Positions 45,642 to 63,427 of a stretch of 64,000 nucleotides of DNA are shown here, piece after piece. A model generated the notes under the pieces. That model saw only the letters and a program-made list of their open reading frames with translations. It was not told the origin of the DNA and did no database searches. The DNA is from Serratia marcescens (lineage in GTDB: Bacteria; Pseudomonadota; Gammaproteobacteria; Enterobacterales; Enterobacteriaceae): assembly GCF_006715005.1 (NCBI RefSeq), contig NZ_VFMJ01000001.1:558001-622000 (forward strand), given 5' to 3'. A program made the translations under genes and the position numbers. Each line of letters begins with the position of its first letter. Position 1 is the first letter of the stretch.

Positions 45642-47813
45642 ATGACTCAGACGACGGCAAATCAACATCCCCGAGATCGCCTGCGCGGGCGCATCGACCG
45701 TGGCGTGCAGGCGGCAGTGACCGCCAGCGGGCTGATGGTGCTGATGACGTTGATGCTGATCTTCGTTTATCTGCTGTTTGCAGTGCTGCCGCTGTTCAAA
45801 CCGGCCTCGCTCGGCCAGGCGCAGCCGCTGCCGATCGCGGTGTCGGCCCCGGCGCTGGCGTTGGGCATGGACGTGCAGCAGCGCGTCGGTTACCGCATCG
45901 ACGCGCAGGGCGCGGGGCAATTTTATCGCCTGACGCCGGCGCCGAACGGCCAGCCACAGACGCCGCTGGCACAGCAGACGCTGCTGGCCAAACCGGCACT
46001 GCTCGCGCAGGCCGCCGGAGAGCGCGATCTGTTCGCACTGGCGCAGGCCGATGGCCGGCTGGTGGTGGCGCGCGCGGATTTCGCCACGGCGGAAAACGGC
46101 CGGCCGCAGTGGCTGTTCCCGCTTGGGCAACAGCCGTTGGCGCTGGAGCCGCAGCGCAAGCCGCTGAAGCTGCTGTCGCTGGCGGATGCGCATCGCGGGC
46201 AGTATCTGCTGGCCGGGGTGACCGACGATCGGCGGCTGGTGTTCGGCCGTTTCAGCCCTGACCGGCCGCCGCAGTTCAGCGAGCGGCCGCTGGAGCACGA
46301 CGCAGAACAACTGGTGCTGACGCCAGATGGCCGGCAGCTTTACCTGCTGACCGGCAACCGGCTGGCGCGTTATGAAATCGACGGCGCACAGCTGCAACTG
46401 CGTGAAACGCGTACCCTTGGCGAACACGCCCCGTATCAGATGACGGCGCTGCCCGGCGGCAGCGCGCTGCTGATCAAGGGCGCCGACGGCAATCTGCGCG
46501 AGTGGTTCGAAGTAGAAAAAGAGCAGCGCTGGCGCCTGACGCCGGTGCAGCATTTCGACCACGGCGCTGACGGGCAAGAGCTGACGGTGGCGGAGCCCTA
46601 TCGCCGGGTGTTCGCCACCCTACGGCCCGATGGTGGCTTCTCGTTATTCTCCACTATTCAACCGCAGCCGCTGCTGAATACCCGTTTGGGCGCCGAGGTG
46701 CGGCAGATGGCGTTCGCGCCGCGCGGCGATGGTCTGCTGCTGGAGAGTGCACAGGGCTGGCAGCGCTATGCGCTCGACAACCCGTATCCGGACGTTACCT
46801 GGCGTTCGCTGTGGGGCAAGGTGTGGTATGAAAACTACCCGCAGCCGGCCTACGTCTGGCAGTCCACCTCTGGTGAAGACAGCTACCAACCCAAATTCAG
46901 CCTGATGCCGGTGATCTTCGGCACCTTCAAGGCGGCGGCTTACGCGATGCTGTTCGCCATTCCCTTGGCCTTGGCCGGCGCCATCTATACCGCTTACTTT
47001 ATGACGCCGGGGCTACGGCGGGTGATCAAACCGGCTATCGAAGTGATGGGCGCGCTGCCGACGGTGGTGATCGGGCTGGTGGCCGGCATTTGGCTGGCGC
47101 CGATCATCGAGCAGTATCTGTTGGCGGTGCTGGCGTTGCCGCTGTTGCTGGCGGCGGCGGTGCTGCTGTGCGGCGCGTTGACCCATCGCTTTATGCCGCG
47201 CTGCCGGCCGGGCGTCGATCTGCTGTTGCTGTTGCCGCTGCTGGCGTTGACGGTGTGGCTGGCGCTCAGCCTGGGGCCGCGGCTGGAAGTGGTGCTGTTC
47301 GGTGAGCCGCTGCATTTCTGGCTGGGGGATAATTACGACCAGCGCAATGCGCTGGTGGTGGGCGTGGCGATGGGCTTCGCGCTGGTGCCGATCATCTTCT
47401 CGCTGGCGGAGGACGCGCTGTTCAGCGTGCCGGCCACCCTGAGTCAGGGTTCGTTGGCGCTGGGCGCCACCCAATGGCAGACGGTGGTCAAGGTGTTGCT
47501 GCCTTCCGCCAGCGCCGGCATTTTCTCCGCGCTGATGATCGGCTTTGGCCGTGCGGTGGGGGAAACCATGATCGTGCTGATGGCCACCGGCAACACGCCG
47601 ATTATCGACGGCAGCCTGTTCCAGGGGCTGCGGGCGCTGGCGGCCAACATCGCCATTGAAATGCCGGAGGCGGTCTCCGGCAGCAGCCATTACCGCGTGC
47701 TGTTCTTGACCGCACTGGTGCTGTTTGTCTTCACCTTCGTGTTCAACACGCTGGCGGAGGCGGTGCGCCTGCGGCTGCGCAAGCGTTACACGCCGAATCA
47801 GGAGGCGCCATGA
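45642..47813 (+). CDS. pstC: Phosphate ABC transporter permease, long PstC type
   Basis: This 723-residue permease (usual PstC is about 320) has helix 1 (about residues 27-50) and an inserted extracytoplasmic region (about 60-400) rich in beta-propeller-like repeats (AEQLVLTPDGRQLYLLTGN). The permease core is from about 425 on, with GTFKAAAYAMLFAIPLALAG and the EAA loop LSQGSLALGATQWQTVVKVLLP. It resembles the second, PstS-less Pst permeases of Proteobacteria. It overlaps the next gene by 4 bp (ATGA). The role in phosphate import is inferred from PstB and the Pho box. Confidence 0.85.
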   Translation: MTQTTANQHPRDRLRGRIDRGVQAAVTASGLMVLMTLMLIFVYLLFAVLPLFKPASLGQAQPLPIAVSAPALALGMDVQQRVGYRIDAQGAGQFYRLTPAPNGQPQTPLAQQTLLAKPALLAQAAGERDLFALAQADGRLVVARADFATAENGRPQWLFPLGQQPLALEPQRKPLKLLSLADAHRGQYLLAGVTDDRRLVFGRFSPDRPPQFSERPLEHDAEQLVLTPDGRQLYLLTGNRLARYEIDGAQLQLRETRTLGEHAPYQMTALPGGSALLIKGADGNLREWFEVEKEQRWRLTPVQHFDHGADGQELTVAEPYRRVFATLRPDGGFSLFSTIQPQPLLNTRLGAEVRQMAFAPRGDGLLLESAQGWQRYALDNPYPDVTWRSLWGKVWYENYPQPAYVWQSTSGEDSYQPKFSLMPVIFGTFKAAAYAMLFAIPLALAGAIYTAYFMTPGLRRVIKPAIEVMGALPTVVIGLVAGIWLAPIIEQYLLAVLALPLLLAAAVLLCGALTHRFMPRCRPGVDLLLLLPLLALTVWLALSLGPRLEVVLFGEPLHFWLGDNYDQRNALVVGVAMGFALVPIIFSLAEDALFSVPATLSQGSLALGATQWQTVVKVLLPSASAGIFSALMIGFGRAVGETMIVLMATGNTPIIDGSLFQGLRALAANIAIEMPEAVSGSSHYRVLFLTALVLFVFTFVFNTLAEAVRLRLRKRYTPNQEAP

Positions 47814-49459
47814 AGAACTGGGTGAAGAGCGGATCGCCGTGGATATGGCTGACCGCCGGTTCGGTGGCCGTCAGCCTGTTGGCGCTGGTCGGCATTCTGT
47901 TGCTGCTGGCCGGGCAGGGGATGCGCTATTTCTGGCCGAGCCCGGTTTATCAGTTCGAGCTGAATCAGAACGGCGCCGGGGCGGTGACGGTGATCGGCGA
48001 GCTGTATCAACAGCAAAGCATTTCACGTCGCCAGCTGACGGAGGCGGGCGTGGCGCCGCCGGGCGAGGCGCAGAGCGTCGAACGTTATCTGATTAAGGTC
48101 GGCAACCGCGAGCGCGAGGGGCAGGATTTCCGCACGCTGCTGGCCAGCGACATCCGCAGCCAAAGCGCGCCGCGCAGCCTGCTGGTGCTGGAGCGGAACA
48201 GCCACGGCACCGCCTACGGATATCTGGCGGGCATGCTGGAAGACGGGCAACCGCTGACCGGCCGCAATCTGGGGCAGGCGTTGCAGCAGCGGCTGCCGCA
48301 AATCGCTGCGCTCTCGCGCCAGGCGCACGACATCCAATTCCGCGATATGGCGCGCATTAATCAGCAGTTTGACGCGCTGCGGCTGCGGGAAAAGCGCCTG
48401 CAGCGCGACGCTAAGCTGGACGCCCGCGCGCAGGACGCCATCAAGGCCGAGCGGCTGGCGTTGCAGCGGCAATACCAGCTGCTGTCCGAACGCCTGGCGG
48501 GGCTGAATCGCGATCGCCAGCGCGATGCGCTGCTGCTGCGCGACATGCACGGCCAAACGTTGACCATTCCGCTCAGCCAGGTGCGCGATGCCTGGTACCC
48601 GAACGCCATGAGCACCACCGAGAAACTGACGCACTGGGGCGAGCAGGTGAAGAAGTTCCTCACCGACAGCCCGCGCGAGGCGAATACCGAAGGCGGGGTG
48701 TTCCCGGCCATTTTCGGCACGGTGTTGATGGTGATCCTGATGTCGATCGTGGTGATGCCGTTTGGCGTGATTGCGGCGGTGTACCTGCACGAGTATGCCG
48801 GCAACAATCTGCTGACGCGGGTGATCCGCATTGCGGTGGTCAACCTGGCCGGCGTGCCCTCGATCGTCTACGGCGTCTTCGGCCTCGGCTTTTTCGTTTA
48901 TATGATAGGCGGCACGCTCGACCAGCTGTTCTACCCTGAATCCCTGCCTAACCCGACCTTCGGCACGCCTGGCGTGCTGTGGGCGGCGCTGACGCTGGCG
49001 CTGCTGACGCTGCCGGTGGTGATCGTCGCCACCGAGGAAGGGCTGTCGCGCATTCCCACTTCGCTGCGGCAGGGCTCGATGGCGCTGGGCGCCAGCCGGG
49101 CCGAGACGCTGTGGCGCATCGTGCTGCCGATGGCTGCGCCGGCGATGATGACCGGCCTGATCCTGGCGGTGGCGCGCGCCGCCGGGGAGACCGCGCCGCT
49201 GATGCTGGTGGGGGTAGTGAAATCGGTGCCGGTGCTGCCGGTGGACGAGATTTTCCCGTATCTGCACCTGGAACGGAAGTTTATGCATTTGAGCTTCCAG
49301 ATCTACGATATGGCATTCCAGAGCCCGAGCGTAGAGGCGGCCCGGCCGCTGGTGTTCGCCACCGCCTTCCTGCTGGTGACGATCGTGGTGAGTTTGAATC
49401 TGGCGGCGATGGGTATCCGCCATTCGTTGAGGGAGCGGTACCGAGCATGGTCGCAGTAA
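47810..49459 (+). CDS. pstA: Phosphate ABC transporter permease, long PstA type
   Basis: This 549-residue protein has an N-terminal membrane helix (about 12-38), a soluble insertion (about 40-290) with a coiled-coil stretch (residues about 180-235, [20 protein letters not shown]) and the permease core (about 300-545). The core contains [41 protein letters not shown] and the EAA loop [22 protein letters not shown]. It is a partner of the long PstC; extra-long permeases on both sides may replace the missing binding protein's docking surface. Translation is coupled to pstC. Confidence 0.87.
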
Positions 49460-49487
49460 CAATGACGCTATTTTTGGGGAGTGCGTA

Positions 49488-50300
49488 ATGGGTTTGATGA
49501 CGCCAGGCAGTTTGCCCCGGCTGGATGTCCAGCATCTCGACGATGAACAGACCGCGCTGGCGGTCAACGGCCTGAACCTGTTTTATGGCGACAAACAGGT
49601 GCTGCATGATATTTCGCTGCGCATTCCGAAACACCGGGTGACGGCCCTGATCGGCCCTTCGGGCTGCGGTAAATCGACGCTGCTGCGCTGTTTCAACCGC
49701 ATGAACGATCTGGTGGACAACTGCCGCATCGAGGGCGATCTGCAGCTGAACGGCGCGGCGATCTCCGGCGCGCAGATCGACGTGGCGGCGCTGCGGCGGC
49801 GGGTGGGCATGGTGTTCCAGCGGCCGAACCCGTTCCCGAAATCGATCTATGAAAACGTGGTGTACGGCCTGCGGCTGCAGGGCGTGCGCGACCGGCGTTT
49901 GCTGGATGAAGCGGTGGAGCGTTCGCTGCGCGCCGCCGCTCTGTGGCATGAGGTGAAGGACCGGCTGCGCGAAAATGCGTTCCGCTTGTCCAGCGGCCAG
50001 CAGCAGCGCCTGGTGATCGCGCGCGCCATCGCCATCGAACCGGAAGTATTGCTGCTCGACGAGCCGACCTCGGCGCTCGATCCGATTTCCACGCTGACCA
50101 TCGAAGAGCTGATTTCCGCGCTGAAGCAGCGTTACAGCGTGGTGCTGGTGACGCACAACATGCAGCAGGCGGCGCGCGTCTCCGACTACACCGCCTTTAT
50201 TCATCAGGGCCGGCTGGTGGAGTACAACGACACCGACGCCATTTTCACGTCGCCGCGCCAGCGCCGCACCGAGGATTATATTACCGGGCGGTATGGGTGA
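49488..50300 (+). CDS. pstB: Phosphate ABC transporter ATPase PstB
   Basis: The 270-residue ATPase has Walker [10 protein letters not shown] (residues 56-64), the PstB-typical [19 protein letters not shown], a signature LSSGQQQRL and Walker [19 protein letters not shown] lies 7 bases before the ATG. PstB-specific motifs (RPNPFP, NDLVD) give the phosphate assignment for the whole set. The operon ends here with a terminator; there is no phoU and no pstS. Confidence 0.93.
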
Positions 50301-50491: not shown

Positions 50492-52159
50492 ATGTGTGCA
50501 TGGAGGCTTGGCGCCTGGTCGCTATTATTAGCGTTTTGCAGCTCGGCGTGGTGCGCGGAAATCACCAGCCCTGCCGATCGCGACAGCATTACCCAACAGC
50601 AGAAAACGTTGCTGGAACAGGCCCAGCAGCAACGCGAGGCGCTGCAAAATAACGTTGAACTGCCGGCGTTACCGCTGCCTGAGCCGGCCGCCGCAGGGGC
50701 GGTTTGCCAACCGGTGCGGCAGATCGTTTTTCAGGGCGCCGAACATCTTTCCTGGTCGGTAAAAGAAAGCCTGGCCCGCCCGTATCAGGGGCGCTGCCTG
50801 ACGCTGGAGCACATCAACCGTCTGGTGCGCGAAACCACCAATGCTTATCTGCAACGCGGCTATGTCACTTCGCAGGCCTGGCTGCAGGAGCAGGATATCT
50901 CCCGCGGCGTGTTGACCGTCAGCGCCAGCGAAGGGCGAATCGAGTCCATCACGCAAAACGGTGAGCAGACGCTGGCGTTGAAGATGGCGTTTCCCGATCG
51001 GGTTGGTGACGTATTGAATCTGCGCGATATCGAGCAGGGCATGGAGCAGCTCAACCGCCTGCCGTCGCAACAGGTGACTATCGATATTCAACCTGGCGAG
51101 CAACCCGGCTTTTCCAAAGTGGTTTTGCTGCGCGGCGCCACGCGCGCACCGGTCTCTTTCTCTTTTGGGGCCGATAACAGCGGCCAGAAAAGCACTGGCA
51201 CCGGGCAGATGAACGCCGCCTTCTCGCTGGATAATCCGCTGCGTCTCGCCGATCAATGGTCGCTTTCCGCAGCGCGCAATAACGATTTCAGCCCGCATCA
51301 TCGCAGCCGTAGCCTGAACGGCAGCGTCACCTTACCCTATGGCTATTGGCTGTTCAGCTACCAGTATGCCTGGAACGACTTTTTCCAGCAGGTGCCGTTC
51401 AACGGTGCCGCTTACCGCTATCAGGGCAACAACCAGACCCAGCGTTTGGGCGCCAACCGCACGTTGCTGCGGGATAGCAAACGTAAGCTGGCCGTCGATA
51501 TCGGGCTGGCGCGGCGCACCACGGAAAATAGGCTGGCGGGGGAACGGTTGGGTGTCAGCAGCCCGACGCTCAGCATCGCCAGCCTGGGCCTCAATTACAG
51601 TGCGGTCGCGGGCGGCGGCTATATGACGCTGAACCCGACGGTAAGCCGCGGGCTGCACATGCTGGGCGCTACCGTCGACGATCCTGAGCGCAACGGGGCG
51701 CCGCGCAGCGAGTTCCGCAAGCTTGGCCTCAGCGCCAGTTATTTCTATCCGCTCGCACCCTCTCTCTACTACCTGACCTCGGCCTACGGACAAACCAGCG
51801 CAGACAACCTGTATGCCGGCGAGCGCATTTCCATCGGCGGGCAATACTCGGTGCGTGGCTTTAAAGAGCAGTACCTGACCGGTAATCGCGGCGCCTACTG
51901 GCGCAATGAACTCAACTGGCAATGGCGGACGTTGCCGGGGTTGGGGGCGCTTTCTTTGACCGGCGCGTTAGACGCCGGCTGGCTGCAGGGGCGCGCCGGG
52001 CAGATAGACGGCGGCAGCGTCGTTGGTGCGGCGCTGGGCACCACGTTAAGCGGCCGTTGGTTCAATCAGGCGATCACCGTTGGTAAATCGCTGACGCACC
52101 CAGACAGCCTGCAACCGGATCGTTGGGTGGCCTACTGGCAAGCCACCGTCACCTTATAA
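50492..52159 (+). CDS. cdiB: Two-partner secretion outer-membrane transporter (CdiB/TpsB, FhaC-ShlB family)
   Basis: This 555-residue TpsB has a signal peptide MCAWRLGAWSLLLAFCSSAWCA, a Gln-rich linker helix (residues 33-55), POTRA domains (about 70-225, including QIVFQGAEHLSWSVKESLARP and INRLVRETTNAYLQRGYVTS) and a 16-strand barrel. The barrel carries the conserved lid motif VRGF at 454-457. It exports the TpsA partner through the outer membrane in an unfolded state. cdiA follows after 60 bp. The ATG lies in an AT-rich leader without a strong ribosome site. ShlB-type hemolysin transporters are the alternative; the downstream toxin structure favours CdiB. Confidence 0.9.
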   Translation: MCAWRLGAWSLLLAFCSSAWCAEITSPADRDSITQQQKTLLEQAQQQREALQNNVELPALPLPEPAAAGAVCQPVRQIVFQGAEHLSWSVKESLARPYQGRCLTLEHINRLVRETTNAYLQRGYVTSQAWLQEQDISRGVLTVSASEGRIESITQNGEQTLALKMAFPDRVGDVLNLRDIEQGMEQLNRLPSQQVTIDIQPGEQPGFSKVVLLRGATRAPVSFSFGADNSGQKSTGTGQMNAAFSLDNPLRLADQWSLSAARNNDFSPHHRSRSLNGSVTLPYGYWLFSYQYAWNDFFQQVPFNGAAYRYQGNNQTQRLGANRTLLRDSKRKLAVDIGLARRTTENRLAGERLGVSSPTLSIASLGLNYSAVAGGGYMTLNPTVSRGLHMLGATVDDPERNGAPRSEFRKLGLSASYFYPLAPSLYYLTSAYGQTSADNLYAGERISIGGQYSVRGFKEQYLTGNRGAYWRNELNWQWRTLPGLGALSLTGALDAGWLQGRAGQIDGGSVVGAALGTTLSGRWFNQAITVGKSLTHPDSLQPDRWVAYWQATVTL

Positions 52160-52219
52160 CGCCAGCACACAGCAGGAGCGCCTCGGCGTTCAAAACAACA
52201 TCCTTTCGAAGGAATGAAT

Positions 52220-55200
52220 ATGGATAAGCTCAACCCTCCGTTGGCGCGCGGCGCCAGCTATTTGCTGATCTACCTGACGGCTTTCCAGCCGTTGCACCCG
52301 GCGTTCGCCGCCGGCATTACCGCCGCCAACGGCAATACGCAGGTGGTTATCAAGCCGGGCGACGTGCCGGTGGTGAATATTGCCACGCCGAACGGTGCGG
52401 GCATCTCCCACAACACCTATAAAGATTTCAACGTTGGGCCACAGGGCGCCGTGTTGAATAACGCCACTCACGGCGGCAAAACGCAGCTGGGCGTGGAGAT
52501 CTACAGCGCGCAGGGCAACACCTACCTGAAGGGAAAACCGGCGGAGTTGATCATCAACGAGGTGATCGGCGGCAGTCGTTCCGAGCTGCAGGGCAAGCTC
52601 GAGGTGTTCGGCAACAAGGCCAATGTGATGATCGCCAACCCGAATGGCATCACCTGCGACGGCTGCGGCTTTATCAACGCGCCGGGCGTGACGCTGACCA
52701 CCGGCAAACCGCAGTTCGACAAGCAGGGCGCGCTGGAAGCGCTGGAGGTGAAAAAAGGCGGCGTCACCATCGGCGGCAAAGGGCTGGACGGCAGCGGCGC
52801 CGACTATGTCGATATCATCAGCCGCGCCACCGAGCTGAACGGCAAAATCAACGCACAAAATCTGTCGCTGACCCAGGGCGCCAACCGCATTAGCTTCAAG
52901 GACGCCAGCATCAAACCGATCGCCGGTGAAGGCGCAAAACCTGTGCTGGCGGTGGATACCAAGGCGCTGGGCGGCATGTACGCCAACAAAATCCGCCTGG
53001 TGGCCAATGAGGATGGGGTGGGGGTGAACCTGAAAGACCTCACCAGCAAACAGCGGGATATTACGCTGAGCGTTAACGGTAACCTGGTGCTTAACGGCAC
53101 CACGCACAGCAAAGGTGACCTCAATGTCAGCGCCAAGGAATTGCACATTACGCCAGGCGCTGTCGTGCAGGCGGACGGCAACGCCACGCTGGCAGCAACG
53201 ACGCTAGTGAATGACGGGCAAACCAGCACCAGTGGCGATATGCGTATCTTTGGCGACCATATCCGCAACGCCGGGGAAAATGCCAAGCTGCACGCCAATA
53301 AAAATATGTGGATCCAAAAGGATGCGCAGGGCAACAAGGCTAAATCCGTCGAGAACCGTTCGGCGAAAATCCTGACCAACAGCGGCGATTTGGTGATACG
53401 TGCCGAACAGGTTCGCAATAAAAGAGATGTCGAGAGTATTAGTAAAACCAAGCTAATACCGACATCAACTGATAAAAATATGCAAGTGGCGAATGTCATG
53501 GCAGAAACCGGTGATTATCCGGTAATTATTACCGCTGAGTTGACGTCGCCATTACCTGAAAAATGGTTTGGAAAAGCGGATTTTAGCAATATTGAGCGGG
53601 GGGTATTGGTTAACGACCAGCAGACTCGGTTTGATGTGGAGGGAAGTTCAGCACCTGCAGAGATCTCTTCTGGTAAGCACCTTTATATCTATGGAGATGA
53701 ATTAGATAATAATAACAGTGTGTTGAGTGCTAATTTAGACCTTATTTTGACGGGTCAGCGCTTTGTCAATACGCAAACTTCCACAGGCACGTTATTGAAT
53801 TACATTCGCTATATTCCTGATGAAAAAGCCAATAAAGAAAATGGGGGAGTGACATTTAATCCATTAACGGCAAAAGAGTTACGTATAACCAATTACTTTA
53901 CCCGAGGTGATAGTGTTCAAGCTTGGCATTCTGTAGGCTACGTTTTACAGCGTATCAGTTTAAGTGCTGGAAAAAGTTTGGTGGCGGATTTCAAAGATAA
54001 AATAGAGATAAAAAACCAAACGCCAGAAGAAAATAAACCCTATGAAGTGAGAGCATTACAACGTCCTGAAACCTTAAAGGCGCAGAACATTTTTCTGCAT
54101 GCTGCGAATATCATCAATACTGACATAATTCGTGCTGACGGCAATATCACCGCGATTGCCGAAGATCGGATTGTTCTTGGGCAAGGCATTTTGGCCGCCG
54201 GAAAAGAACTGTCTCTGACGGCAGTCAACGCTATCGACGCATGGCAAAGTGAGCTGAAAGGGCAGGACGTCACGTTAAACGCCAAAAACGGTGATATAAA
54301 AATACATTCCAGTGAGAAACCTCATTACTTCCGCCCTGACGGCTCTCGCTGGTTGGGCAGCCTTGAGGCTTCACGCGATTTGTCTCTCACGGCTGGCAGC
54401 ACCATTACGTTGCTGAATACGCTGTTGGCGCCGCAAAGCCGCAATATCGCTATGACGGCTAACGGCAGCATTGCCATCGTCAAAAACAGCGCGTTGTTGG
54501 AGGGGCCGCTATTAGGGGGGCCGGTTTCTCCGGCTAAACGGCAAGAATATTTCAACCAACTGTTGGCCAGTGGCCAAATGAGGGCAACGGGTTCGGTGCT
54601 GCTTAATAGCGGTGGCTATCTGGCGCTACGCGGCACCAAGATTAATGCGGACAAGGACGTTACGCTGTTAGCCGCCCATAACGCCGATCTTAATTACCGT
54701 GAACTTGACGGCCGATTCAATGCGCTTTTCCCTGTGTCCCGCACGCCTGAACTGGGCAGCCGGGTACACGCCGGCGGCAATTTGCTGATTAACTCGGCTC
54801 GCGACATCGGCACCCAGGGCGGCGCGCTTTCCGCTAACGGCAACATCACGTTGCTGGCCGGGCAGAATCTATGGTTATCGAATCTGGCCTATTCCGCCAT
54901 TGATGCCGCCAACGACAACAATAAAGACGACCGCCATGTGGTCACTACTCTCAGCGCCGGGAAAAACCTGACCGCGGCGGCGAATAACCAACTGCTGACT
55001 TACGGCGCCAGGTTGACTTCGGGCGCCAATATGACGCTATCCTCCGGCGGTGATATGCGCTTCGAGGCGGTGCAAAACCACACTTACCGAGAAGGTGGCA
55101 ACGAATTTACCGAAACTCGCACCCAGCAAGGGACCGAGCTGAATGCCGGCGGCCTTATGGCGGTGATTTCCGGCGGCAGCATTCTCTTTCAGGCCACCAA

Positions 55201-58200
55201 ACTCCTGTCTAAGGGACAACTTGGACAGATAGGTATTTCTATTGACCTTTCTGGGGTTGACTCTGCATTTTCAATGGCTGAACGCCGGGTTCAGGAGGCT
55301 AGGCAGCGACTTGAACAGACGATAAATAATAGGTCTAAGACCGAAAACCAACTAAATGCAAGTAAACACGCATTGGGTAGCGCACGTCAGCACCCTGATA
55401 CCTTGTCGTTATTTGATGCTGCCGCACATCCAATTACGTCATCATCATCCCGGTTCGTTTCAGTGCCGGTTTATAGCGGAGGGGGCGTTCACTTTGACGC
55501 TTCGGCATTGATTGATAATCAGGCACACCTCGAGCGGTTATTACGAGAAGGGGGCCGGGCGTTTGTTAATAATGTCCTTCAATGGGGAGATGTCACTGCA
55601 CCGACTCAAGACGGCGTCAAAGTCGGTAACGCGATAAAAGAAGCGACCATAGAAGAATATGACAAGATTCGTCAGCGTTTAATAGACCGCCAGAATGCGA
55701 TAAATAACGCGCAAAGTGCGCTAAATGCATCCCAACATGCATTTGACCAGGCCCAGCAGCAGACTCTACAACAGACGAAAGAAAAAAATGATGCCGAAAA
55801 TCAACTTAACGTGGCTCTGGCAGCAAAACAGCGCCAACATGATGCGGAAAGACAACGTAAAGAGCAGGAAGATGCTCGAAATCGTGAACTGGCGATCCGC
55901 ACCGGTTCCTTGGATATCGCCGCCAAGGGCGGCTATCTCTACGCCCAGGCGATGGAAGAGTCCAGCCACTACGAGAAAAAGGAAACCAAGCGCAAATGGT
56001 GGGGCAAGAAAACCGAGGTTAAGCAGACCCGCCATGACGTGACCAACAAGGTTACCGAGTTTACCGCCGCCGGCAATATCACGCTGATGAGCCGCGACGA
56101 CAGCACCTATGAAGCCAGCAAAATCGCCGCCGGGCAAAACGCGCGCCTGACCAGCTCCCGTGGACAGGTTAACTTCCGCGCGGTGAAAAACACCTCTTTC
56201 GAACAGACCGTCAGCAATTCGAAAGGCTTCTTTATCAAGCAGGCCAATAAAGGGTACGAAGACAATAAGTGGGTGCTGCCGAGCATCCATACCGGTGGCG
56301 CCTTGACCGTAGAGGCCGCCAAGGGTGTTAACGCCGATGTGAAGGTGAAAAACGGCCAGGCGCTGCAAAGCGCCATCGATGCCCTGGGCAATACGCCGGG
56401 CACCACCTGGGTCAAAGATCTGAACAAGCGCAACGACGTGCAGTGGAGCAAGGTCAAAGACGCTTACGACAGCTGGGATTACAAGAGCCAGCACCTGAAC
56501 CCGGCGGTGGCGGCGGTGATCGCCATTGCGGCCGCGGCGGTGACCGCAGGCAGTTCACTGGCGGCCACGGCGGCCTCCAGCGTTTCCGGCGCCGTGGGCG
56601 GCGGGGTGGTAACCAGCGGCGCGGTCACGGCCGGGATGTCTTCTCTGGCCTCCCAGGCGGCGGTCGCGCTGGTTGAGAATCAAGGCAACCTGTCGAAAAC
56701 GCTGCAGGCGCTGGGCAGCAATGAAAACGTCAGGGCGACCGCCACGGCGATGGCGATCGGCGGAGCGCTCAACGGCTTCGACAGCGCGATGGGCTGGAGC
56801 AAGGATGCGGCGGGCAAACCGCTCAATCCAAATAACGTCAAACTGCCGCAGCTGAGCAACGGCGACTGGAGCAAAGTGGCGCAGCGGGTGGCCGGGCAAT
56901 CGGTCATCAGCTCCAGCCTGAATACCGCCATCAATGGCGGCAGCTTCAAGGACAACCTGACCAATGCGCTGCTGGCGAACATCGGCAGCCAGGTTCAGGC
57001 CGAGGGCGCCAACCTGATTGGGGATAACGGTCAGGTTCTTGATATACCGGGCCGGGCCGTAAGCCATGCCGTTCTGGCGGGCATCAGCGCGGAAATCGGC
57101 AAGGGGAATGCCAAAGGCGCGGCGGCAGGGGCGCTGGCGGCGGAGCTGGCCGGGGTGATCATCAATGATAATCTGGTCAGAAGTGAAGGCTGGCAAGAGC
57201 GTCAGGCTCAAATCAGCCGCGTAGCGGGCGCCTTTGCAGGGGCCATCGTAACCGCCAAAGCCGCAGGTGCCACCAGCGGTGCAAATGCGGGTGAGTTTGT
57301 CGAGCGTTTCAATCGACAGCTGCACCAGGAAGAACTCAACGCCATTAAAGCGTTGGCTAAGGGCGACAAGGAAAAAGAAGCGCGTCTGATGGCCGCATCC
57401 TGCCGAAAAGTCGCCTGCACCACGCAGGAAGCGCTAAACTCAGATGAGCGCAAGCAGTTTGAAGCCCTGATGAATAAGTATCCGTCAACGCGGGATGAAG
57501 ACGGCCTTATTGCCAACTACTGGGTACAAAAAGAGCGTCAGCGCTTCGGCAACTATCCGGTGTTTGCCGGCTATGACAGCGAAAAGTTATTCACGTATGA
57601 TTTGGGCGACCAGATAACCGACGGCCAGCTGTTTGCTCGCAACCAGCAGATAGAACAAATCAGCAAGTTGACCGGGTGGTCGCCGGACTGGGTGAATGCC
57701 TCGGTGATGGCGGTCTCTATTGCCAACACATTTGCCGGTATGGGTAAAGCAAACGTCGGCAACCAATACCTGTCATCCAAATTGGTAGGCCCAACCAGCG
57801 CCTGGAAAGGGTATCTGGTCAATGAGAAGACGGTTCAGCAGGCTGCTGCATTCAAAAACCAGGTTACAGAACTGAGGGCTGGTCTACCATCAGACTGGAA
57901 ACGTGGTGGCAACGTTGCCGTGGCCAATATTGATATATCTGGAATGCCAAAGACACTTGCGGGTCACAATCTCATAAATGTTGAAGGGAAAGGTTTTGTT
58001 GGAAAGGGAAAAGAAAATTTCAAATATGAGACTTTGCTTACTGATGATGGTAGACCAGTACCAAGACGTATAGACTCTGAATATAAAATATTGGATAACT
58101 TAGCTGATAAATTAGGAAGTAATTATTCTGCTAAAGGTTCTGTTACTATTTTTACAGAAAAACCTGCCTGCGACAGTTGCTTGGGCGTTGTTAAACAATT

Positions 58201-58279
58201 CGAGAGTAGGTACCCTGGGGTGAAAATTAACGTTTTGGACAATAACGGAGTGCGTTTGATTCCGGGAAGAGGTAAATAA
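52220..58279 (+). CDS. cdiA: Contact-dependent inhibition exoprotein CdiA with C-terminal deaminase-like toxin
   Basis: The 2019-residue TpsA protein starts at 52220: AAGGA is 6 bases before this ATG and 0 bases before the ATG at 52214. Domains: signal peptide to about residue 30; TPS secretion domain (35-300) with NPNGITCDGCGF near 140-151; AT-rich insert of unlike codon use (about 393-630); FHA-type repeats (640-990); coiled-coil insert (about 1010-1225); ESSHYEKKETK repeat block (about 1240); hydrophobic pretoxin segment (1425-1465) and pretoxin region to about 1880. The toxin tip (about 1880-2019) carries a deaminase-like zinc site Asp1952-Ser-Glu1954 plus Pro-Ala-Cys1984-x-x-Cys1987. The tip is AT-rich and probably exchanged. 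The target (nucleic acid or nucleotide) is unknown. Confidence 0.9.
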   Translation: MDKLNPPLARGASYLLIYLTAFQPLHPAFAAGITAANGNTQVVIKPGDVPVVNIATPNGAGISHNTYKDFNVGPQGAVLNNATHGGKTQLGVEIYSAQGNTYLKGKPAELIINEVIGGSRSELQGKLEVFGNKANVMIANPNGITCDGCGFINAPGVTLTTGKPQFDKQGALEALEVKKGGVTIGGKGLDGSGADYVDIISRATELNGKINAQNLSLTQGANRISFKDASIKPIAGEGAKPVLAVDTKALGGMYANKIRLVANEDGVGVNLKDLTSKQRDITLSVNGNLVLNGTTHSKGDLNVSAKELHITPGAVVQADGNATLAATTLVNDGQTSTSGDMRIFGDHIRNAGENAKLHANKNMWIQKDAQGNKAKSVENRSAKILTNSGDLVIRAEQVRNKRDVESISKTKLIPTSTDKNMQVANVMAETGDYPVIITAELTSPLPEKWFGKADFSNIERGVLVNDQQTRFDVEGSSAPAEISSGKHLYIYGDELDNNNSVLSANLDLILTGQRFVNTQTSTGTLLNYIRYIPDEKANKENGGVTFNPLTAKELRITNYFTRGDSVQAWHSVGYVLQRISLSAGKSLVADFKDKIEIKNQTPEENKPYEVRALQRPETLKAQNIFLHAANIINTDIIRADGNITAIAEDRIVLGQGILAAGKELSLTAVNAIDAWQSELKGQDVTLNAKNGDIKIHSSEKPHYFRPDGSRWLGSLEASRDLSLTAGSTITLLNTLLAPQSRNIAMTANGSIAIVKNSALLEGPLLGGPVSPAKRQEYFNQLLASGQMRATGSVLLNSGGYLALRGTKINADKDVTLLAAHNADLNYRELDGRFNALFPVSRTPELGSRVHAGGNLLINSARDIGTQGGALSANGNITLLAGQNLWLSNLAYSAIDAANDNNKDDRHVVTTLSAGKNLTAAANNQLLTYGARLTSGANMTLSSGGDMRFEAVQNHTYREGGNEFTETRTQQGTELNAGGLMAVISGGSILFQATKLLSKGQLGQIGISIDLSGVDSAFSMAERRVQEARQRLEQTINNRSKTENQLNASKHALGSARQHPDTLSLFDAAAHPITSSSSRFVSVPVYSGGGVHFDASALIDNQAHLERLLREGGRAFVNNVLQWGDVTAPTQDGVKVGNAIKEATIEEYDKIRQRLIDRQNAINNAQSALNASQHAFDQAQQQTLQQTKEKNDAENQLNVALAAKQRQHDAERQRKEQEDARNRELAIRTGSLDIAAKGGYLYAQAMEESSHYEKKETKRKWWGKKTEVKQTRHDVTNKVTEFTAAGNITLMSRDDSTYEASKIAAGQNARLTSSRGQVNFRAVKNTSFEQTVSNSKGFFIKQANKGYEDNKWVLPSIHTGGALTVEAAKGVNADVKVKNGQALQSAIDALGNTPGTTWVKDLNKRNDVQWSKVKDAYDSWDYKSQHLNPAVAAVIAIAAAAVTAGSSLAATAASSVSGAVGGGVVTSGAVTAGMSSLASQAAVALVENQGNLSKTLQALGSNENVRATATAMAIGGALNGFDSAMGWSKDAAGKPLNPNNVKLPQLSNGDWSKVAQRVAGQSVISSSLNTAINGGSFKDNLTNALLANIGSQVQAEGANLIGDNGQVLDIPGRAVSHAVLAGISAEIGKGNAKGAAAGALAAELAGVIINDNLVRSEGWQERQAQISRVAGAFAGAIVTAKAAGATSGANAGEFVERFNRQLHQEELNAIKALAKGDKEKEARLMAASCRKVACTTQEALNSDERKQFEALMNKYPSTRDEDGLIANYWVQKERQRFGNYPVFAGYDSEKLFTYDLGDQITDGQLFARNQQIEQISKLTGWSPDWVNASVMAVSIANTFAGMGKANVGNQYLSSKLVGPTSAWKGYLVNEKTVQQAAAFKNQVTELRAGLPSDWKRGGNVAVANIDISGMPKTLAGHNLINVEGKGFVGKGKENFKYETLLTDDGRPVPRRIDSEYKILDNLADKLGSNYSAKGSVTIFTEKPACDSCLGVVKQFESRYPGVKINVLDNNGVRLIPGRGK
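56802..57044 (+). repeat. Conserved pretoxin segment, intact copy inside cdiA
   Basis: This 243-bp segment of cdiA (DAAGKPLNPNNVKLPQ to NGQVLD) is repeated at 58798-59039 with over 90% visible identity. It is the likely homology arm for recombinational swapping of toxin tips. Confidence 0.9.
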
Positions 58280-58281
58280 CA

Positions 58282-58656
58282 ATGAGTGTGATGAATTATG
58301 ATGAGATAAGAAATAGCTTTGCCCATTCAAGTTACGTTTATTGCAGGGAGATAATTGACCTATTGAAAGATGGGGATAACCATGGGGTTTGTGATACATC
58401 TGATCAGGCGTTTGCGTATGAGTCATTAGAAGGTTCGTTTGAAGAACCTATAGAATGCCTCATGCTTGAGCTAGTGACGCTCATCTTTATGGCTGGTCGA
58501 TGTAGTGATAAAACAGTAAAGTTCCACACAGATATCATATTAAAAATTTTATCCGAAAATGATTTATTCGAAATGCTTAAGGATGTAACTGAAGATGAAA
58601 AAAACGAAATTTTAAACGATCTTCGATTGCTTGGCTTTATCGATATGCCTGAATAA
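58282..58656 (+). CDS. cdiI: CDI immunity protein (cognate to the cdiA deaminase tip)
   Basis: This acidic 124-residue protein has no recognised family. The ATG is 2 bp after the cdiA stop, with a purine-rich ribosome site (GGAAGAGG) inside the end of cdiA, so expression is coupled. Position, small size, acidity (C-terminal DVTEDEKNEIL) and low GC matching the toxin tip argue for the immunity partner. No signal or membrane segment is seen, fitting cytosolic neutralisation. The function is inferred from context alone. Confidence 0.75.
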   Translation: MSVMNYDEIRNSFAHSSYVYCREIIDLLKDGDNHGVCDTSDQAFAYESLEGSFEEPIECLMLELVTLIFMAGRCSDKTVKFHTDIILKILSENDLFEMLKDVTEDEKNEILNDLRLLGFIDMPE

Positions 58657-58797: not shown

Positions 58798-59039
58798 AGG
58801 ACGCGGCGGGCAAACCGTTCAATCCAAACAACGTCAAACTGCCGCAGCTGAGCAACGGCGACTGGAGCAAGGTGGCGCAGGGGTGGCTGGGCAATCGGTC
58901 ATCAGCTCCAGCCTGAATACCGCCATCAATGGCGGCAGCTTCAAAGACAACCTGACCAATGCACTGCTGGCGAACATCGGCAGCCAGGTTCAGGCCGAGG
59001 GAGCTAATTTGATTGCGGATAACGGTCAGGTTCTCGATA
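58798..59039 (+). repeat. Displaced copy of the cdiA pretoxin segment
   Basis: This 242-bp copy of cdiA 56802-57044 has scattered substitutions and one missing C in the stretch after GTGGCGCAG (near 58880), which shifts the frame. It joins directly to the orphan toxin tip at GGTTCTCGAT. It marks the orphan module as derived from a former cdiA 3' end. Confidence 0.9.
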
Positions 59040-59324
59040 AAAACAGTTGATGGACGCCAATACGCACGTATAGGTGATCGTCTTTACTCTCAACATGCCG
59101 TTGACAGAATGCAACCAACAAGCTTAGGTTCCCCAGCAGGAACCATTGGACCTGGAAAAAACATTTCGCCAAATATAGTTGAACATGTAATTAAAACAGG
59201 TGTTACTGAAACAAGCATATCCAATGGTATTCAAAGGACAATTTATCGGGCTGGTGACATTGGTGTGGTTACTGAAAACAATGGTAACATCATAATCACA
59301 ATTCTTCGTAGGAGTGAGAAATGA
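58798..59324 (+). pseudogene. Orphan cdiA C-terminal module (cdiA-CT o1), frameshifted
   Basis: The conserved pretoxin copy is followed by a toxin tip reading DGRQYARIGDRLYSQHAVDRM to the stop at 59324. The tip's HAVDRM and ISPNIVEHVIKTG patterns resemble DUF4258-like RNase-type domains (tentative). The repeat has a 1-base deletion near 58880. An A5 run at 59039-59043 has one base too many, so the two shifts cancel; each alone leads to stops. There is no start codon, ribosome site or secretion domain. The tip ORF alone is open from about 59013, and its TGA overlaps the immunity gene by 4 bp. Confidence 0.8.
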
Positions 59325-59587
59325 GTGAGTGGATTTATCCCGATGTAATTAAAAAACTTAGGTTTTCCTGTGCGGCCTTTTTAGAGGGAAAACTATCTGT
59401 GGCTGAAGTTCAATCAGAAATAGATAACGCAGGTAACAGTATTGTAGCGATAGAGGAAAAATGGTTACGGCAGGTGCTACTTGATGCGGAAAGCGATATT
59501 GAACTTTTGATCTTCACTATTGACAATGAAAAATTGACAGAGGCTGTCACACCTATCGTACAGAATATTATCAAGGCAATAAGTTAG
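59321..59587 (+). CDS. Orphan CDI immunity protein (partner of orphan tip o1)
   Basis: This 88-residue acidic protein (MSEWIYPDVIKKLRF...) has an ATG overlapping the end of the orphan toxin tip by 4 bp (ATGA), the usual arrangement for cdiA-CT/cdiI. GGAG (GTAGGAGTGAGAA) is close upstream. No family was recognised. It may still protect against sibling strains that carry this toxin tip. Confidence 0.7.
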   Translation: MSEWIYPDVIKKLRFSCAAFLEGKLSVAEVQSEIDNAGNSIVAIEEKWLRQVLLDAESDIELLIFTIDNEKLTEAVTPIVQNIIKAIS

Positions 59588-59702: not shown

Positions 59703-59882
59703 CGGTTAGAGGGAGTGTGGAGCTTTCATATACAGATACCTAAAATAATAAAAATGATAAATTACTCTATAAATACATCAGGGTGTGTGTATCGGTGTTC
59801 TATTGATGTTATTGGGAATAAGGATATAAAAAAGTATCGAATCTCTCCGATAGCAAGTTTAAAATCAAGTTTAGATAGGTGA
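59703..59882 (+). pseudogene. Fragment of a second orphan toxin tip
   Basis: After the terminator an AT-rich open frame runs to TGA 59880-59882 (ending SPIASLKSSLDR). It has no start of its own, no homology arm and lies 5 bp before an immunity gene, as the last codons of a cdiA-CT would. The N-terminal boundary is uncertain; the toxin family was not recognised. The longer frame from 59616 merely runs through the terminator. Confidence 0.45.
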
Positions 59883-59887
59883 TCTAT

Positions 59888-60253
59888 ATGCTTACAATAG
59901 AGCAATATGAAAATAGGAAGGAAGCTCTTGTGGGAGCATCGATGGTGACTATTTGGGAAAATATTCATCCGGATAGTCTATCAGGTAAGATCTGCCTTTC
60001 TTTTTATGAGGAAAAAGAGTTATTCCTCTGGTTTATCGAGCATTTGATGAATGAGGGGATAGTAAAACTTGGCAACGGGGGCGAGTTCTTGAAGGGAACA
60101 GTGAAAGAGCAGGTCGATAAATTTAGAGCCAGTTTTCCTAATACTCCTGAAGAGATGGAGTATGGCGCTTTTAATGGATACTGGTTTTTATCTGATGCAT
60201 GCCCCGCTGGCCTTGTCTGGATTCACGAAAACGGTTATCAAGATTGGACTTAG
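59888..60253 (+). CDS. DUF596-family CDI immunity protein
   Basis: This 121-residue protein starts at 59888 (MLTIEQYENRKEALV). The pattern LTxEQYxx, the LFLWFIEHLMNEGIVKLGNGGEFLKGT block and the ending GYWFLSDACPAGLVWIHENGYQDWT are typical of the DUF596 family found next to CdiA/Rhs toxin tips. It is a probable immunity partner of the toxin fragment just upstream. It is low in GC and has its own terminator. Confidence 0.75.
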   Translation: MLTIEQYENRKEALVGASMVTIWENIHPDSLSGKICLSFYEEKELFLWFIEHLMNEGIVKLGNGGEFLKGTVKEQVDKFRASFPNTPEEMEYGAFNGYWFLSDACPAGLVWIHENGYQDWT

Positions 60254-60880: not shown

Positions 60881-61432
60881 TCACTTCACCAGCGGCTTAT
60901 CATTGGGCGTTTTGAACTTCGCCAGATATTGCGGCTGGAAGATGCACATGCGCAGCACGGTGCGGTATTCGCCGTTGACGAAGAACTCGTCGATCAGTTC
61001 GCCTTCCACGTTGAAGCCCAGCTTGCTGTAGATGTGGATCGCCTTCGGGTTCTCCTTGTCGACGATCAGGTACAGCTTGTACAGGTTCAACACCGAGAAA
61101 CCGTAGTCCATCGCCAGACGGGCGGCGGTGCTGGCGTAGCCTTTGCCCTGGTGGGCGGGATCGATGATGATCTGGAACTCAGCGCGACGGTGGATGTGAT
61201 CGATCTCCACCAGCTCCACCAGGCCGACCTTGGCGCCTTCGTGCTCGATGATAAAGCGGCGCTCGCTCTGATCGTGGATGTGTTTGTCGTAAAGATCGGA
61301 AAGCTCGACAAAGGCTTCGTAGGGTTCTTCAAACCAATAGCGCATGACGCTGGCGTTGTTGTCCATCTGGTGGACGAACGACAGATCGTCCCGTTCCAAT
61401 GGGCGTAACCTGACGCTGGCAGTGCTGGACAT
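60881..61432 (-). CDS. speG: Spermidine N-acetyltransferase
   Basis: The 183-residue GNAT enzyme acetylates spermidine and spermine at N1 or N8, relieving polyamine excess. It is strongly similar to E. coli SpeG across [20 protein letters not shown] and [20 protein letters not shown], with the acetyl-CoA loop [14 protein letters not shown]. The protein forms an allosteric dodecamer in related species. It is monocistronic with a terminator; in E. coli speG is located elsewhere. Confidence 0.95.
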
Positions 61433-61491
61433 GTGGGCTCCTCTGTGCCGTGAAATTGTGCAAAGTATAACTTCACAGAATGGATGAAGGC

Positions 61492-61524
61492 GAAAAAAAA
61501 ACGGCGCCGCGTGGGCGCCGTTTA
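61492..61524 (-). terminator. Intrinsic terminator of purMN
   Basis: Minus-strand AAACGGCGCC/GGCGCCGTTT stem with loop CACGC and a following T9 run, 22 bp after the purN stop. Confidence 0.92.
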
Positions 61525-61546
61525 GGCAAGGTTCAGGCTGCGCGCA

Positions 61547-62185
61547 TCAGTCGGCGGCGTGACCTTGCTCAGGCAGGCGTTCGCCGTCCAGCCAGGCGGC
61601 GCCATCGCGCATTGCCAGGCGGCCATCGACGAACCAGCTCACCACCAGCGGGTAGATCGTGTGTTCCTGGGTTTGCACCCGTTCAATCACGTCATCTTCT
61701 TCGTCGTCAGCGAAAATTGGCACCTTGGCCTGCAAAATCACCGGGCCGCCGTCGAGCTGTTCGGTCACGAAGTGCACCGAGGTGCCGTGTTCGCTGTCGC
61801 CGTTGTCGATGGCCTGACGGTGGGTATGCAGACCCGGGTATTTCGGCAGCAGGGAAGGGTGGATGTTCAGCATGCGGCCGGCATAGCGCTGCACGAACTG
61901 CGGGCTGAGGATGCGCATGTAGCCGGCCAGCACCACCAGATCGGGCTGGTACTGGTCGATGGCGTCCGCCAACGCGGCGTCGAACGCCGCGCGATCGGCG
62001 TAAGCCTTGGCATCCAGCGCCTGGGCGGCGATGCCCGCCGCTTCGGCGCGTTGCAGGCCGTAAGCCTGCGCCTTGTTGCTGAACACCGCCACGATCTCGG
62101 CGGCGATGCGGCCCTGCTGGCAGGCGTCAATCAGCGCCTGGAGATTGCTCCCCTGGCCGGAGACCAACACCACGATCTTTTTCAT
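61547..62185 (-). CDS. purN: Phosphoribosylglycinamide formyltransferase
   Basis: The 212-residue enzyme transfers a formyl group from 10-formyl-THF to GAR in purine synthesis. Signatures are VVLVSGQGSNLQALID, VVLAGYMRILSPQFVQRYAGRMLNIHPSLLPKYPG (active-site Asn/His) and GTSVHFVTEQLDGGPVILQA (catalytic Asp). Its ATG overlaps the purM stop by one base. Confidence 0.96.
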   Translation of the reverse strand: MKKIVVLVSGQGSNLQALIDACQQGRIAAEIVAVFSNKAQAYGLQRAEAAGIAAQALDAKAYADRAAFDAALADAIDQYQPDLVVLAGYMRILSPQFVQRYAGRMLNIHPSLLPKYPGLHTHRQAIDNGDSEHGTSVHFVTEQLDGGPVILQAKVPIFADDEEDDVIERVQTQEHTIYPLVVSWFVDGRLAMRDGAAWLDGERLPEQGHAAD

Positions 62186-63222
62186 CAGTTGATGACCACT
62201 TGTTGTTCGGCGGAAGAGGCGGTCAGTTTACCGATTTTCCACGCTTTTTCACCTGCCGCGGTCAGCAGCGCGATGGCCGCTTCCACTTCGGCTTCCGGCA
62301 GGGCGATGACCATGCCTACGCCGCAGTTGAAGGTGCGGTACATTTCATGACGGCTGACGTTGCCGGCCTGCTGCAGCCAGGTGAACACTGCCGGCCACTG
62401 CCAGCTGGCTTCGTCGATCACCGCCTGCATGCCTTCCGGCAGCACGCGTGGAATGTTTTCCCAGAAGCCGCCGCCGGTGAGGTGAGCGATGGCGTGTACG
62501 TCCGCCTTCTCGATCAGCTCCAGCACGGACTTCACGTAAATTTTGGTCGGCGCCAGCAGGTGGTCGGCCAGCGGTTTGCCTTCCAGCTGGGTGGCGGTCG
62601 GATCGGTGTTGCTCACTTCCAGGATTTTGCGCACCAGCGAGTAGCCGTTGGAGTGCGGGCCGGAAGCGCCCAGGGCGATCAGCGCGTCGCCGGACTGCAC
62701 TTTGCTGCCGTCGATGATCTCGGATTTTTCGACCACGCCGACGCAGAAACCGGCCACGTCGTAGTCTTCGCCGTGGTACATGCCTGGCATTTCAGCGGTT
62801 TCGCCACCCACCAGCGCACAACCGGACTGTTTGCAGCCTTCGGCGATGCCGGTGATCACGCTGGCCGCGGTGTCCACATCTAGCTTGCCGGTGGCGTAGT
62901 AGTCGAGGAAGAACAGCGGCTCGGCGCCCTGAACCACCAGATCGTTGACGCACATCGCCACCAGATCGATGCCGATGGTGTCGTGGCGTTTCAGATCCAT
63001 CGCCAGACGCAGCTTGGTGCCCACGCCGTCGGTACCGGAAACCAGCACCGGCTCGCGGTATTTCTGCGGCAACGCACACAGGGCGCCAAACCCGCCCAGA
63101 CCGCCCATCACTTCCGGGCGACGGGTCTGTTTAACTACACCTTTGATGCGATCTACCAATGCGTTGCCTGCATCGATATCGACACCTGCGTCTTTATAGC
63201 TGAGAGAGGTTTTGTCGGTCAC
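62185..63222 (-). CDS. purM: Phosphoribosylformylglycinamidine cyclo-ligase
   Basis: The 345-residue AIR synthetase uses ATP to close FGAM to AIR. It begins with a GTG at 63222 ([13 protein letters not shown]), preceded by GGGGAA; E. coli purM also uses GTG. Longer ATG frames upstream run through the PurR box and are non-homologous. Key blocks are [33 protein letters not shown] and [16 protein letters not shown]. It is the first gene of purMN. Confidence 0.96.
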
Positions 63223-63307
63223 TGCGCGATTCCCCACGACGATTTGCGGTTTGAAAACTGTGCTTCCGATGTTGATTCCGGAATAAGGCGCGGCAATTCT
63301 AACAGCG

Positions 63308-63323
63308 CAGGCAAACGTTTGCG
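63308..63323 (-). promoter_or_regulatory. PurR operator of purMN
   Basis: AGGCAAACGTTTGCGA contains the perfect palindromic core GCAAACGTTTGC and differs little from the 16-bp PurR consensus. It lies 86 bp upstream of the purM GTG, between the divergent upp and purM promoters. Confidence 0.9.
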
Positions 63324-63427
63324 AGCGGCTTGTGAACCGGCTCTGCTTTTTCGTCATCTATACTGATATTCAAACTTTTGTTGATCCCGATCGGGCTATT
63401 GTGGGTGGCGCGGCGAAAAAAAGGAGG

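Follow-up and report, generated by a model that had tools for sequence, protein, structure and literature searches.

Introduction

The deaminases of bacterial polymorphic toxins carry two short motifs, [HCD]xE and CxxC (Zhang et al. 2012, PMC3482391). One of their families, the BURPS668_1122 deaminases (Pfam PF14424), is described in the same paper as paired in beta- and gamma-proteobacteria with Imm2 (PF14426), an all-alpha immunity protein with acidic and hydrophobic residues, and in Firmicutes with Imm3. A PF14424 tip together with Imm2 is also found in a contact-dependent growth inhibition (CDI) locus of Pseudomonas aeruginosa LESB58, formed by PALES_28341 and its CdiI (PMC4725963), and for Salmonella there is a listing of a small BURPS668_1122 protein partnered by SUKH_5 (PMC10469887). 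Among the E. coli CDI toxins, those of type 17 are MafB19 deaminases, which are presented as uncharacterised and whose activity is predicted (PMC11630599), while DddA and SsdA are named as characterised deaminase effectors in a 2023 review (PMC9990079). Here we describe a CDI locus in 64,000 nucleotides of Serratia marcescens DNA, referred to below as the window (assembly GCF_006715005.1, contig NZ_VFMJ01000001.1, positions 558,001 to 622,000 of the forward strand). It is likely that this is a type V (two-partner) CDI locus in which the toxin tip of CdiA is a PF14424 deaminase and its partner an Imm2 immunity protein.

The C-terminal tip of CdiA matches the BURPS668_1122 deaminases

The genes, domain and motifs on which this reading rests are as follows.

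50492..52159, forward strand: cdiB, two-partner outer-membrane exporter (ShlB, PF03865, E 2.5e-91; POTRA, PF08479, E 1.8e-22, and PF17287, E 1.6e-22)
52214..58279, forward strand: cdiA, filamentous effector of 2021 aa plus stop (PF05860, PF04830 and C-terminal PF14424)
57863..58246, forward strand: toxin-deaminase domain, CdiA residues 1884-2011 (PF14424, AlphaFold2 model and fold comparison)
58073..58081, forward strand: D1954-S1955-E1956, predicted first zinc ligand and catalytic Glu (motif; helix start in the model)
58163..58180, forward strand: P1984-A-C1986-D-S-C1989, predicted second and third zinc ligands (motif; helix start in the model)
58282..58656, forward strand: cdiI, Imm2-family immunity protein of 124 aa (PF14426)

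An earlier note, made from the DNA letters alone, had proposed a BURPS668_1122-type deaminase at the tip of CdiA, and the Pfam search agrees with it. The tip matches PF14424 along the whole profile (positions 1-146 of 146) with an E value of 2e-25 and a score of 90.1 bits against a cut-off of 29.6. Neither the SCP1.201/DddA (BaDTF1) profile nor the MafB19 deaminase family PF14437 was among the families reported for the tip at E ≤ 1. The type 17 toxins of E. coli are similar in being predicted deaminases delivered by CdiA and differ in belonging to PF14437 (PMC11630599). Both published toxin-deaminase motifs are present, as D1954-S-E1956 (D1954 codon starting at 58073) and C1986-D-S-C1989 (C1986 codon starting at 58169), with 30 residues from E1956 to C1986. 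The motif residues and this spacing had been read correctly in the earlier note, although its numbering of D1952, E1954 and C1984 was two too low. In kind, nothing sets the Serratia tip apart from the BURPS668_1122 deaminases, with which it shares the whole-profile match, D-x-E, C-x-x-C and a C-terminal place in a polymorphic toxin; it is 52% identical to a member from Pseudomonas sp. HMWF032.

The predicted structure also points to a deaminase. AlphaFold2 modelled the tip with confidence (predicted local distance difference test score 90.8), and in the numbering of the model D-S-E begins helix 76-88 and C-D-S-C begins helix 108-120. When the model was compared with known folds (VIA-align), deaminases made up all 50 of the 50 matches listed, with SsdA at the top, so the deaminase fold foreseen in the earlier note was recovered in the prediction. 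SsdA (BaDTF2, from Pseudomonas syringae) is nevertheless a different toxin: it is delivered by a type VI secretion system, belongs to a DYW-like subfamily, has another immunity protein and is 13% identical to the tip over the aligned part. DddA belongs to another family, SCP1.201, and is not among the 50 listed matches of the better model, which proves nothing.

The tip and the gene behind it form an AT-rich pair, as had been noted before, with a GC content of 0.378 (57850-58656) against 0.547 in the rest of cdiA (52214-57850) and 0.606 in the whole window. Compared with the toxin of locus L020, to which it is 87% identical, the tip has a ratio of nonsynonymous to synonymous substitution rates (dN/dS) of 0.127, and by this sequence measure it is under purifying selection. 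Against L019 (99% identical) the toxin has a ratio of 0.142 (3 changes) and the immunity gene one of 0.847 (9 changes); with so few changes, neither value carries weight. Public records under the names S. marcescens and S. nevei contain tips identical to that of the window.

Aspartate is the rule at the predicted first zinc-ligand position

Classic cytidine deaminases have His or Cys at the first zinc-ligand position. The Asp of CdiA had appeared unusual in the earlier note, and it could be taken to mark a degenerate or differently acting site, either lacking zinc deaminase chemistry or belonging to a decayed tip. Broken relatives do occur, such as L017 and L030. We examined the loci scoring over the PF14424 cut-off that reach the motif, namely the window, L003, L004, L005, L007, L011-L018 and L067-L070, where L014 and L018 share one genome; the over-cut-off loci L006, L010 and L076, which begin after the motif, and all sub-cut-off matches were left out. 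Asp occupies the motif position in 17/17 of these loci and C-x-x-C is present in 16/17; it is missing from L017, where an internal stop occurs as well. Because the Pfam profile search does not look for the motif itself, these loci are a fair sample for Asp.

The same residues are retained in alignment A4, where D, E and both Cys occur in all 29 rows. This alignment contains the window, L003, L007 and 26 of the 34 relatives from a separate search, one of whose search patterns contains DSE. Eight relatives were left out, either for a stop within the stretch (L030, L045, L047 and L048) or for being partial (L046, L050, L051 and L052); among them, L046 reads D-S-K and L030 has its stop at the first Cys.

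Since every one of the 17 PF14424 loci carries D and [HCD]xE has been in print for toxin deaminases since 2012 (PMC3482391), Asp is not unusual at this position. As judged from these sequences, D-x-E is the rule within the PF14424 family and not peculiar to the Serratia protein. The open CdiA reading frame and the low dN/dS of the toxin likewise speak against degeneration, and we regard a degenerate or differently acting site as very improbable.

The gene downstream of cdiA encodes an Imm2 protein

The start of cdiI lies 2 bp from the cdiA stop, and its 124-aa product is acidic, with 27 Asp/Glu against 10 Lys/Arg and a calculated pI (isoelectric point) of 4.27. The earlier note had described this small acidic neighbour accurately and had gone on to call it an unrecognised partner; on that view an unusual deaminase would be joined by an immunity protein of a new family. 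The Imm2 match spans only CdiI residues 61-119, leaving the first 60 residues outside, and an NCBIfam search of CdiI returned no family at E ≤ 1; with these two properties CdiI can look unrecognised. However, the match scores 50.2 bits over a Pfam cut-off of 35.7 (E 2.6e-13). A protein search with CdiI returned 7 proteins, itself included, of which 6 bear the Imm2 Pfam label, and one relative (P0126) is named 'Imm2 family immunity protein' at its source. The pairing of PF14424 with Imm2 is moreover already in print (PMC3482391, PMC4725963). An unusual variant with a new immunity family, as stated, is refuted by the profile match and the published pairing, and we assign next to no probability to it.

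CdiI resembles the Imm2 family in its score, in its acidity and in its place directly after a PF14424 toxin. Because the tip and the small protein match their profiles at E 2e-25 and E 2.6e-13, the motif and the small open reading frame (ORF) beside it are more than a chance arrangement. Both family assignments, PF14424 and Imm2, are nearly certain.

We also scanned 34 ORFs, that of the window and 33 downstream of relatives, for immunity families. At E ≤ 0.01, Imm2 was found in 21 and Imm3 in 2, and no fewer than 11 ORFs gave a match to neither family. Toxin and immunity identities covary across 27 loci (r 0.758; 0 of 2000 permutations as high), a correlation to which shared locus ancestry contributes. 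The mean identity between pairs of toxins is 0.52, and that between pairs of immunity proteins 0.34. L047 was left out of alignment A3, as its locus stops at the contig end and no downstream ORF was found.

Two Clostridium loci, L048 and L049, have PF14424-like tips that contain D-S-E and C-S-S-C, and the ORF behind each tip does not resemble Imm2. The two Imm3-matching ORFs are presumably these neighbours.

Organization of the CDI locus

The order of genes is that of a two-partner (type Vb) CDI system: a CdiB exporter, a CdiA with a two-partner secretion (TPS) domain and a C-terminal toxin, and then the immunity gene. CdiB consists of a ShlB domain plus POTRA_2 and POTRA_3 by Pfam profiles. 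None of the 2021 CdiA residues form a VENN string. VENN precedes the toxin in many enterobacterial CdiA proteins but is absent from other classes and is no defining mark of CDI as a whole. In CdiA, the TPS domain PF05860 lies at residues 44-292 (E 2.6e-49) and DUF637 (PF04830) at residues 1470-1640 (E 5.3e-55). Here the Serratia protein differs from PALES_28341, whose row in a table of PMC4725963 reads 'none' where other rows have DUF637.

One further part of CdiA lies directly before the toxin.

57326..57847, forward strand: 174-aa CdiA segment, candidate cytoplasm-entry region (present in 7/30 same-genus genomes)

This segment is a candidate for the region that would allow entry into the cytoplasm. 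The seven genomes that have it, own genome counted, carry it at 94-100% identity and are the same seven that have a full-length PF14424 tip, and thus the segment travels with the deaminase in this small sample. Among these genomes the tips drop to ~61% identity.

Distribution of the family

PF14424 and Imm2 each occur once in the genome of the window. Counting that genome, PF14424 scores over the cut-off in 8/30 genomes of the same genus and, in wider samples, in 7/394 genomes of the order, 1/369 of the class and 6/398 of the phylum. Named toxin relatives come from Serratia, Pectobacterium, Pseudomonas, Photorhabdus and Haemophilus, and extend to Burkholderia and Clostridium. In two genomes, G413 (L014 and L018) and G334 (L005 and L010), a shortened second PF14424 copy lies ~1 kb from the first, each followed by a small ORF of its own. 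Both pairs are apparently tandem orphan deaminase modules.

An orphan module and neighbouring genes

Downstream of cdiI, the following features were identified.

58798..59039, forward strand: duplicated cdiA fragment heading an orphan module (copy of 56802-57044; blastn 94.2% over 243 columns, E 1e-105)
59013..59324, forward strand: orphan CdiA-CT-like (C-terminal, CT) ORF, with relatives that bear no family name
59321..59587, forward strand: small ORF overlapping the end of the CT-like ORF (sub-threshold Pfam match only)
59879..60253, forward strand: DUF596 small protein (PF04591, E 3e-15)

The 243-bp cdiA fragment and the CT-like ORF are in different reading frames. For the CT-like ORF, neither Pfam nor NCBIfam gave a family at E ≤ 1, and 18 proteins, counting its own entry, match it at E ≤ 0.001. 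The DUF596 protein, which comes after the orphan module, is probably the product of another orphan immunity gene. The CDI locus is flanked (47810-50300 and 60881-63357) by phosphate-transport genes, with PstA and PstB models over their cut-offs, on one side and by speG, purN and purM on the other.

Proposed mechanism and substrate

The toxin-immunity pair is real and intact, and the deaminase is probably active. By its domains, CdiB would export CdiA, which, as in CDI generally, would bind a neighbour cell and release its C-terminal region into the cytoplasm. There, D1954, C1986 and C1989 would hold a zinc ion and E1956 would shuttle protons, leading to the hydrolytic deamination of a base in the nucleic acid of the target cell. 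Producer and sibling cells are probably protected by the Imm2 protein, which would sit over the active site. Based on the motif, the predicted fold and the conservation, we consider zinc-dependent nucleic-acid deamination the likely activity of the tip.

The substrate is put forward with less assurance. By analogy with SsdA, DddA and the BaDTF3 toxins, the likeliest target is cytosine in DNA, which we give about an even chance. This preference follows de Moraes et al. 2021 (PMC7901873), whose tested toxins deaminate DNA cytosine. Alternatively, the tip could be a deaminase that kills by acting on a free nucleotide or on an RNA such as tRNA or rRNA. The toxin families BaDTF1, 2 and 3, for which activity was shown, mutate DNA (PMC7901873), and SsdA heads the fold matches listed for the tip model; an RNA or nucleotide target is therefore a tentative and somewhat doubtful alternative. 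In the literature searched we found no biochemical test of the PF14424 family, though one in subscription journals may have been missed.

As a discovery the pair is expected, since the two families were already published as partners in 2012 (PMC3482391). Deaminase toxins can mutate surviving cells (PMC7901873), and some have been turned into base editors. It is unlikely that the chemistry or substrate of PF14424 departs from that of the characterised DNA-mutating toxins, for example by acting on a specific RNA or a non-cytosine base. If it did, the difference could conveniently be brought to light with the Serratia CDI pair. The interest of the pair rests on the substrate of PF14424, for which this compact toxin and immunity protein offer a usable test case.
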